From Alphaproteobacteria bacterium (lineage in GTDB: Bacteria; Pseudomonadota; Alphaproteobacteria; RF32; CAG-239), in NCBI GenBank assembly GCA_017621635.1, contig JAGASU010000030.1, positions 1 through 33,568 of the forward strand: a DNA stretch of 33,568 bases, written 5' to 3'. The notes below the pieces were generated by a model. It ran no database searches. It saw only the letters and a program-made list of their open reading frames with translations, and had not been told where the DNA came from. Each line of letters opens with the position of its first letter. Position 1 is the first letter of the stretch. Below are positions 29,003 to 31,140 of the stretch, one piece after another. The position numbers were made by a program, and so were the translations under genes.

Positions 29003-30013
29003 ATGAGTAAAGATGGTTTTAGTTTTGTTAGTATTTCCGAGGAAGTAGACAAGAAAATAACAGGCTATAAAAAAAGCAGATTTAATGATTTAGTTAAAAG
29101 AGAATACTCCAATGGGGATACTAAATTAGTTGTTGAAGGAGCGCGTTTAAATAGAACAGGTGTTTCTCAATGGGATACATCAGATATTTATACGGATAAT
29201 AAAGGATATACAATGACGTTTACGCGTGATAGTATGGGAAATCCTTTATCTATATCTATTCAGGTTCCAAACGGCTCTGAGATGACAAAGTATGTTATAA
29301 ATCAGCAAACGCTTTCCAGATATGATAATATTAATCCGATGGAAGCGAACAGAATTTTTAACAAAACGGAACAAAAAGTTAAGAAAGGGGCTTCCATAGA
29401 AGAAATTGCAAGAGATTTTTCTGATTATCAACGTTCTCCTTATTCAAGAGAGGAACTTAAAGAGATTGATAATCAAAAGTCTATTAATGAGGAAATAAAA
29501 GCAAAGTATGATAAATTAATGAGTAAAGGCAATTTTGGTATACATACTTTTGAAACCATTTCTAAAGATTTTGATAAACATATGCAAAGCAAGGCTGTTG
29601 GGGCGCCTACGATAATGTTGTCTCAAAACGACAGGGACGTAAGCGGTCGTTTAGATGATAAAATTTCTTTTAGTACACTGGCGGCTGTTACTTATTCTGA
29701 AAAAAGCAAAGATGTTTCTGAAATCAGACTATCTACCATAGATTACAGGCAAGGAATTAGCGGCTCTCCATCTTATGATGAAGTTTTGAATATAGAAACA
29801 TTAATGAAAAAAGGATATGACAGGGATACTGCCCAGCAAAAGTTAAATGACGTTATGCAACAGATATATGACGGAAAACCTTTGAAAGAGATATTTATCA
29901 GCAACAAGCAATTTTTGACTGAAAAATCAGAGAAGCTGTTTGCTCAAAATCTGGAAAAACAAAGACAGGATAGAATACCTAACTATATCAAGACTCCGAA
30001 AACAAGAGGTTAG
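29003..30013 (+). CDS. Unrecognised 336-residue soluble protein
   Basis: I do not recognise this gene. It has no signal peptide or membrane helix. The first 110 residues look beta-rich (Y-T-M-T-F-T-R-D-S-M-G-N-P-L-S-I), the middle (about 115-200) is charged and helical, and residues 200-270 again contain strand-like segments. The C-terminus is helical and ends in basic residues (K-T-P-K-T-R-G). It has its own promoter, a good AGGAG at 28991, and a terminator 28 bp after the stop, so it is a well-bounded single-gene unit. Base composition is like its neighbours. A secreted effector or phage relic is possible but nothing in the sequence shows it. Confidence 0.78.
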   Translation: MSKDGFSFVSISEEVDKKITGYKKSRFNDLVKREYSNGDTKLVVEGARLNRTGVSQWDTSDIYTDNKGYTMTFTRDSMGNPLSISIQVPNGSEMTKYVINQQTLSRYDNINPMEANRIFNKTEQKVKKGASIEEIARDFSDYQRSPYSREELKEIDNQKSINEEIKAKYDKLMSKGNFGIHTFETISKDFDKHMQSKAVGAPTIMLSQNDRDVSGRLDDKISFSTLAAVTYSEKSKDVSEIRLSTIDYRQGISGSPSYDEVLNIETLMKKGYDRDTAQQKLNDVMQQIYDGKPLKEIFISNKQFLTEKSEKLFAQNLEKQRQDRIPNYIKTPKTRG

Positions 30014-30073: not shown

Positions 30074-30087
30074 GATATAATATAAAT

Positions 30088-30110
30088 ACCCCCGTTTTGC
30101 AAACGGGGGT
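30088..30110 (-). terminator. Terminator of the outer-membrane protein gene
   Basis: ACCCCCGTTT (30088-30097) and AAACGGGGGT (30101-30110) form a perfect GC-rich 10-bp stem with a 3-nt loop. On the minus strand it lies 26 bp past the stop of the beta-barrel gene; the following T-run is broken. Confidence 0.75.
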
Positions 30111-30136
30111 GAATATTTTTGGAGATATAATTAAAT

Positions 30137-30916
30137 TTAGAACATATATCGAAGGCCTAGGGATAATTCTGTCATATTTTTAATAATATCATCATCGCTG
30201 AATTTAATATAACGCGCCATAGCGCGGAGTGCGATGTGTTCATTAATATTGTATTGTGCACCGATACCAAATCTATACCCCATAGTGTTTAGGTTATCTT
30301 TGTCAGTATAGATATAATATTCATCTTCATATGTACTTTTTTCATTAAAATTATATTGAGCAAGTCCAAGAGAAGCTAATAATTCAAGTTCCTGACTTAC
30401 GGGTAAATAACCAATTAAATCAATACCGATTGCATTGAATTGTATTTTTTCTTTATCATCCCAATCGTCTGTTTTTGTTTCTTCACTTGACTGTTGAATA
30501 AATGCTTCAATACCGAAGTTTTGATTAAATTTTGCGCCGGCATTTAAGCTATATGCTGTGTATGAAGTCGGTAGAACTTCTTTGTAATTGAAGCTATCTC
30601 CGTATTCGTCTTTGACGGATGAAAATTTCATTTTTGTTGTAGTAATATCTACTCCGACATAGGGGCGGATGGTGCTTGATGAGGTGTTGGTTAGTTGCCT
30701 TTCTTCATATTCTCTTGCTTCCTCTCTTGATAAGCGGCGATAGCGGACGGGTTCCTGACTGGTATTTGTATATTTAGGTTCTTCACGATAACGAACTTGG
30801 CGTTCATAGCGAGGTTTTTCTTCGTAGTAATATCCGTTTTCTTCATAATATCTCGCTTGCGCGTTATTATAGGCTAAAACGGTGAATATACCTGCTAGTA
30901 TTAAAAGTTTTCTCAT
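30137..30916 (-). CDS. Outer-membrane beta-barrel protein
   Basis: The 259-residue product begins with a signal peptide (M-R-K-L-L-I-L-A-G, cleavage probably after A-Q-A near residue 23). A Tyr/Glu/Arg-rich stretch of about 60 residues follows. From about residue 85 (I-R-P-Y-V-G-V-D) alternating beta segments run to a final phenylalanine (L-G-L-R-Y-M-F), the usual outer-membrane sorting end. The pattern fits a small eight-stranded porin or OmpA-type barrel of the kind common in alphaproteobacteria. The frame is open to 31015, but ATG 30916 has AAGGAAG upstream and gives a clean signal peptide; the longer frame would run through the leader hairpins. Expression is probably set by the structured leader upstream. 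Confidence 0.82.
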   Translation of the reverse strand: MRKLLILAGIFTVLAYNNAQARYYEENGYYYEEKPRYERQVRYREEPKYTNTSQEPVRYRRLSREEAREYEERQLTNTSSSTIRPYVGVDITTTKMKFSSVKDEYGDSFNYKEVLPTSYTAYSLNAGAKFNQNFGIEAFIQQSSEETKTDDWDDKEKIQFNAIGIDLIGYLPVSQELELLASLGLAQYNFNEKSTYEDEYYIYTDKDNLNTMGYRFGIGAQYNINEHIALRAMARYIKFSDDDIIKNMTELSLGLRYMF

Positions 30917-30947
30917 ATCTAACTTCCTTTTCTTACGATAGTTTAAA

Positions 30948-31140
30948 GAAAAAGCCATCTTTTTTAAGATGACTGGAAGTTGAAAGCTATGAATAGTATA
31001 GTGCGGTATATTCACCGCATAGGTTTATTTTACCGCCTTCCAGTCCAAGACCAAAAGGCATGTAAAGTGTCGTCTTTACATATAGACGCTATTCAAGAGG
31101 CTTTCAAACCTCAGAATACCTTTTTTTGATATTCCGAGGG
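30948..31140 (-). ncRNA. Structured leader or small RNA with attenuator-like terminator
   Basis: On the minus strand, upstream of the beta-barrel gene, five hairpins line up: 31109-31139 (10-bp stem, one wobble), 31061-31080 (7 bp), 31035-31059 (11 bp, loop UUG), 31002-31019 (6 bp) and a terminator-like stem at 30954-30973 with a T-run at 30949-30953. The 3' arm of the third hairpin, GACTGGAAG, is also perfectly complementary over 9 bp to 30971-30979 (CTTCCAGTC), which overlaps the terminator stem by three bases. So two exclusive folds exist. This fits a cis-acting attenuator or riboswitch-like leader, or a free small RNA ending at the terminator. It matches no riboswitch class I know. Confidence 0.55.

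Follow-up and report, generated by a model that had tools for sequence, protein, structure and literature searches.

The window analyzed here, the whole 33,568-nucleotide stretch of contig JAGASU010000030.1 from an alphaproteobacterium of the CAG-239 lineage, carries a structured leader on its minus strand at 31135-30921, between a promoter-like site and the ATG of a beta-barrel gene (Table 1). Near relatives of the encoded protein match PF13505, and its NCBIfam matches are weak and under cut-off. An earlier note had placed an attenuator-like element at 30948-31140; the element is real, and its limits are better drawn at about 31135-30921, slightly wider than proposed. Divergent from the leader, a plus-strand gene runs from 31531 onward, which we take to resemble pyruvate phosphate dikinase, and some relatives keep a similar neighbor sequence. 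The intergenic segment 31195-31345 is a dispersed palindromic (REP-like) repeat with 56 matches in the window genome. At 30087-30111, a strong hairpin is usable as a bidirectional terminator between convergent genes ending at 30013 and 30137.

Folding of the minus strand from 31140 to 30915 (226 nt) gave a minimum free energy of -81.4 kcal/mol, compared with -43.7 (sd 4.21) in 200 dinucleotide shuffles (z -8.95), none of which equaled the leader. The opposite strand displayed a fold z of -6.64, as expected because inverted repeats also fold there. The 11-bp stem that had been described is present (GCCUUUUGGUC/GACUGGAAGGC, 31059-31049 with 31045-31035), and its 3' arm begins with nine letters (31045-31037) that can pair without mismatch with 30979-30971, the alternative partner that had been claimed. 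This second strand is in turn overlapped by a terminator-like stem at 30974-30953 followed by a U run, again as proposed. We refer to the 11-bp stem as P4 and to the alternative pairing as ALT.

Table 1. Predicted elements of the leader and its surroundings, in window coordinates.
Feature	Position	Strand	Basis and remarks
Promoter-like site TTTACG-19-TATAGT	-35 31174-31169, -10 31149-31144	-	Weak alone; ends 31 nt upstream of first conserved hairpin
P0, 5' hairpin close to expected transcript start	31113..31135	-	Fold; outside covariance model
P1 hairpin GAGG-UUUGAAAG-CCUC	31097..31112	-	Paired in 99.2% of cells
PK-A 5' strand (P1 loop)	31106-31101	-	PK-A 99.3% paired, 6/6 pairs with compensatory change
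P2 5' strand GAAUAG, partner 30996-30991 (P7 loop)	31089..31094	-	96.5% paired, 6/6 compensated
P3 hairpin CGUCU/AGACG	31071..31088	-	93.0% of cells paired
PK-B, P3 loop with downstream strand	31081-31076 with 31065-31060	-	80.6% of cells paired; weaker, alignment gaps interfere
P4, wobble-rich 11-bp stem, 3' arm in common with ALT	31035..31059	-	90.9% of cells paired
ALT helix 5' strand GACUGGAAG	31037..31045	-	99.6% paired, 8/9 compensated; not model-imposed
P5 (GGU/ACC, GC/GC extension possible), A-rich internal loop, P6 hairpin	31003..31034	-	Alignment
P7 hairpin CUAU/AUAG, loop contains P2 3' strand	30987..31001	-	99.7% paired, 3/4 compensated
PK-A 3' strand CUUUCA	30981..30986	-	Covariation
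ALT helix 3' strand CUUCCAGUC	30971..30979	-	Covariation
Intrinsic-terminator-like hairpin (30974-30953) and U-rich tail	30943..30974	-	Four-nt overlap with ALT 3' strand
Ribosome-binding site GGAAGUU, complementary to AACUUCC at ALT 3' strand	30921..30927	-	Sequence, predicted fold
Putatively regulated gene, 259-aa outer-membrane beta-barrel protein	30137..30916	-	Translation

The leader recurs within and beyond the window genome. A blastn search located it at four places in this genome, all with E-values of 1.1e-4 or lower, and gave matches in 13 of the 18 genus genomes. A covariance model (R1) built from 27 aligned copies detected the leader in 124 of 152 family genomes, representing 15 of 16 genera, and in 27 of 385 genomes of the class, with up to 20 copies per genome, a possible lower bound since 20 candidates were scored in each. 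Two family genomes (G138 and G033) reached 20 matches each within 1.6 Mb, subject to the same bound. The window genome has six R1 copies, one before the beta-barrel gene and five before prepilins. A 20-base pattern occurred in at least 104 stretches of named genomes, and nearly all of the matches listed were from uncultured alphaproteobacteria or proteobacteria, many labeled gut or rumen. Pattern matches in Serratia symbiotica, Bittarella and a Clostridiales bin (loci L119, L165 and L100), as well as at loci L181 and L188, were unconfirmed by the covariance model and were set aside. An exact search of the viral_contigs set with one 20-base pattern found no match, nor did blastn of the window leader against phages or of another leader (L377) against plasmids.

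Covariation was assessed in a model-based alignment of 100 copies drawn from 197 mutually different loci, the other 97 being left out. With PK-A and PK-B included, 93.6% of cells were paired, and the covariation score was 0.548, compared with 0.220 after shuffling and 0.05-0.08 when partners were slid. The nested helices P1-P6 rest partly on the covariance model, from which PK-A, ALT and P7 are absent. The ALT helix had 41 cells altered on both sides, compared with 5.6 in shuffles; P4 is kept less well in mid-stem, its two worst pairs failing in 34 and 27 of the 100 copies. P4 and ALT are mutually exclusive partners of one strand and both are conserved, which is the signature of a switch. The conserved core also holds nearly invariant unpaired A-rich segments. 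The conservation and covariation in relatives, whose lack would have spoken against the element, are thus both present; three pseudoknot-type helices are backed by the covariation, and so, separately, is the predicted alternative pairing.

The flanks of the leader are conserved as well. From 272 model matches, we retained 226 distinct copies after dropping identical cores. A -35/-10 pair was recognized in 135 of 221 copies, compared with 10-28 after shuffling, ending at most 45 nt upstream of P1 in 133 of them and mostly at 25-31 nt; the possible promoter suggested previously is weak singly, yet it recurs at a nearly identical place in these 133 copies. A terminator-like hairpin with a U run followed 214 of 226 copies, against 5-14 in ten rounds of shuffling, and it overlapped the ALT 3' strand in 208; a recognized terminator was missing in 12. 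Together with the compensatory changes in ALT, these terminators bear out the proposed layout of a read-through/stop switch. Downstream, 204 of 226 copies are followed by a reading frame starting at a median of 49 nt (IQR 44-54), a value to be read knowing that the script picking the starts favored about 48 nt, and 22 copies have no nearby frame.

The ribosome-binding site (RBS) appears to be drawn into the same exchange. Complementarity between the RBS region and the ALT strand averaged 13.69, compared with 12.49 (sd 0.13, maximum 12.73 of 50 rounds) when strands were swapped among 194 copies, a test in which shared ancestry remains. Complementarity of the RBS thus tracks the ALT strand, and the same strand can therefore also cover the RBS, as the ALT 3' strand does in the predicted minimum-free-energy fold of the window leader. 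The terminator-only reading of the switch accordingly holds for the transcription stop and falls short in that the switch probably acts on the RBS too. At the level of sequence, aptamer strand and expression platform of the leader pair in mutually exclusive ways, as is expected of a riboswitch.

The genes that follow the leaders are unrelated to one another and include beta-barrels, prepilins, lipoproteins and glycosyltransferases. The Pfam scan covered 150 of the 163 non-redundant proteins encoded downstream and left out 13; the matches, from families that overlap, comprised OMP_b-brl (22), PilS (6), HTH_3 (5), Glycos_transf_2 (4), PEGA (4), PLDc_2 (3) and others. Prepilin motifs were present in 29 of 156 downstream proteins and in 1 of 699 neighboring frames, and a lipobox in 28 of 156 and 27 of 699, the background in both cases consisting of overlapping six-frame frames.

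Comparison with Rfam linked the leader to sRNA-Xcc1 (RF02221). The window scores 32.9 bits against this family, below the cut-off of 53, and nevertheless aligns over model positions 1-87 with a 9-bp closing stem enclosing hairpins in the same order. Sub-threshold matches in the 3' half were obtained at 3 of 16 loci and at 7 of 20 more distant loci of the class (best 45.5 bits), and RF02221 itself exceeds its cut-off in 39 of 398 phylum genomes. Shared with the window are, in order, the closing stem (equivalent to ALT), P5/P6, P7 and the PK-A 3' strand. The family as filed covers only 87 positions and is described as a stand-alone sRNA. The two types differ in the P3 region and the expression platform and in their genes, RF02221 copies lying before phage or SymE genes and window-type copies before surface genes.

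The 5' half, on which the Rfam model is silent, also accompanies RF02221 at its loci in phages, in prophages of E. coli and in other members of the Pseudomonadota. We read the sequence upstream of 20 of these loci: in 18, the strand preceding the closing stem has a partner of at least 6 nt there, mostly visible as a P1-like hairpin loop, and a P2/P7 pairing of at least 6 nt occurs in 13, so that P1/PK-A and P2/P7 are found upstream of the Rfam part outside the class as they are in the window; a P4-like stem was seen by eye in several. Adding 40 loci gave 60, or 58 distinct after dropping identical 3' strands. In this set the upstream partner reached at least 6 nt in 54, with a mean of 8.17 compared with 5.68 (sd 0.15) when permuted, and the RBS-region partner averaged 6.26 compared with 5.11 (sd 0.12), shared ancestry remaining in both tests. 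The RBS-region partner reached 6 nt in only 33 of 58 loci, 27 of which share strand letters with the upstream partner. The RBS there often repeats the 5' strands, and both would therefore compete for one 3' strand.

A second covariance model (R2), built from alphaproteobacterial leaders only, recovered 5 of the 20 RF02221 loci with E-values up to 0.01 (lowest 1.1e-6) and missed 15 even at E 10; it found 11 of 15 further Xcc1-type or borderline loci (weakest 0.013), and a strict scan of the phylum returned only 2 of 398 genomes. Given the 15 missed loci and the sparse phylum scan, the case for homology draws on architecture no less than on score. The window genome has three Xcc1-type copies besides its own type, one of them before a prepilin, which ties both leader types together. 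Judged by this shared architecture, the leader is homologous to sRNA-Xcc1, and RF02221 represents the 3' half of this predicted structure. The earlier statement that the leader resembles no nameable riboswitch therefore holds in that no Rfam riboswitch matches at threshold, and has to be amended in that a divergent cousin, sRNA-Xcc1, can be named.

PMC2996969 gives sRNA-Xcc1 as an 88-nt RNA by RACE, and reports an RNA of about 100 nt from Xanthomonas that was detected by Northern blotting and RACE mapping; PMC12444791 places sRNA-Xcc1 upstream of symE in integron cassettes. The 87 positions of the Rfam model run from the ALT 5' strand to 8 nt beyond the ALT 3' strand, and the mapped sRNA ends would therefore flank the ALT helix. 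We infer that these ends reflect processing or termination of the leader.

Matches to an Xcc1-type leader were obtained in 41 phage records and in 160 of 5426 E. coli genomes. In the phage and E. coli regions that were read, it stands in front of antirepressor genes that belong to unrelated types (AntA/AntB, Bro-N, ORF6N and P22AR), and Pfam assigned the 48 proteins downstream of RF02221 loci to SymE (5), Rha (2), Bro-N (2), P22_AR_N (1), KilA-N (1) and others. One E. coli locus (L381) shows how much of the leader Rfam captures: with starts at 1201 for the leader, 1311 for the RF02221 match and 1431 for the gene, the match accounts for 85 of the 195 letters counted from P1 to its own end. Across 12 E. 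coli and phage copies, the P1 loop, its 3' partner and the RBS region vary together in 10, the remaining two being unparsed, and the P2 strand, the P7 loop and the RBS region likewise vary together in 10 of 12. In E. coli GMM060, which has 13 leader places in its genome, an Xcc1-type leader, a P22AR-domain gene and an ISL3 transposase jointly interrupt bcsE (locus L382, 3001-5425).

RNA control of phage antirepressor genes is also known from the C4 system of P1-like phages, in which C4 acts as a separate antisense RNA. The two kinds of control occur side by side in E. coli strain 350 (locus L383, 580-1389), where a 0.8-kb stretch of broken antirepressor genes holds isrK, C4 and its a1/b1 target together with an Xcc1-type leader.

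Collectively, we consider it very probable that the 5' leader contains an RNA switch, homologous to sRNA-Xcc1, that acts in cis to decide whether the gene is read. In the model suggested by the sequences, one 3' block (P7 loop, PK-A 3' strand and ALT 3' strand) would have two sets of partners. P4 could form first, cotranscriptionally. Pairing of the 3' block with the 5' domain (P2 5' strand, P1 loop and P4 3' arm) would then yield a compact multi-pseudoknot fold in which ALT unmakes the base of the terminator and frees the RBS, turning the gene on; pairing of the block with the terminator arm and RBS would shut both, turning it off. A signal, which may be a small molecule, a protein or folding kinetics, would tip the balance. 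That the pseudoknotted fold is the ON state is fairly likely, and simultaneous formation of the pseudoknots and signal sensing are parts of the model that we infer. For the window, energies computed with pseudoknot contributions excluded were -68.2 kcal/mol for the OFF fold and -59.5 for the ALT fold, 8.7 worse, as would suit a gene that is off by default and needs a signal.

The sub-case in which the RNA alone binds a small molecule, making it a riboswitch in the strict sense, is a serious candidate that we place a little short of even. Its long conserved, aptamer-like core with nearly invariant A-rich segments, its multiple pseudoknots and its mutually exclusive expression platform argue for it, and with terminator-type riboswitches such as SAM and GEMM/c-di-GMP it shares a structured 5' leader, strand exchange between aptamer and terminator, and RBS control. 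Against it, the gene content indicates no single metabolite, and a protein-bound leader would look alike. The leader differs from those riboswitches in having no Rfam riboswitch match at threshold, and the window as a whole had no Rfam match at the gathering threshold; we know of no riboswitch class with its pseudoknot layout. Matches by E-value to ARRPOF, CRISPR-DR45, PhotoRC-II, Phe_leader and others were far under cut-off and treated as chance, the Phe_leader score bearing on an amino-acid attenuator being 16.4 bits against a cut-off of 55. Comparison by eye with the R/L box consensus of integron attC sites found no such boxes. c-di-GMP is unlikely as a ligand because no GGDEF match was found in 4 of 20 carrier genomes (G000, G017, G219 and G508), including the window genome, which is 97.9% complete, and G017, which is 100% complete and has ten leader copies; the GEMM classes, which also gave no Rfam match at the gathering threshold, were set aside on these grounds.

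It is improbable that the element is an independent or processed small RNA that works in trans from its own promoter and terminator, with the downstream gene incidental. The Northern and RACE signal of about 100 nt in Xanthomonas (PMC2996969) and the promoter and terminator flanking the element are what such an RNA would present, but a terminated leader would yield an identical Northern signal, and the nearly fixed distance to the start codons of unrelated genes, the RBS pairing that tracks the RNA and the biased downstream gene content speak for action in cis. Chance folding of a dispersed mobile or palindromic (REP/MITE-like) repeat deserves almost no credence and was rejected for the window type, since its copy number (up to 20 per genome, possibly a lower bound) and the E. 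coli GMM060 case (13 places, the copy read traveling with an ISL3 transposase) are outweighed by covariation, with pairs kept in copies widely divergent in sequence, and by conserved promoter, terminator and start-codon spacing.

The cis-acting switch in the leader thus remains our preferred reading. No description of the full element was found in the literature searched. Its 3' half is known through Rfam; the same literature gave no account of the predicted 5' half, the putative cis role with two exclusive folds, the copies of pseudoknot strands in the RBS or the branch that serves surface genes in alphaproteobacteria. Whether all of this forms one system we regard as an even call: an unrecognized ligand- or protein-sensing switch class across Pseudomonadota, with an RBS copying pseudoknot strands, that would be carried by phages, insertion elements and integrons before antirepressor or SymE genes and would govern a surface-gene regulon (pili, porins, lipoproteins and glycosyltransferases) in small-genome alphaproteobacteria, sRNA-Xcc1 being its stable fragment or terminated form. 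A filed "small RNA" would then become the visible half of a widespread leader switch. The switch would also make a strong candidate for an orphan riboswitch, both of its folds having independent support, and E. coli prophages would offer an experimentally easy version. For the little-studied alphaproteobacteria of the gut, the leader suggests how surface genes may be coordinated.
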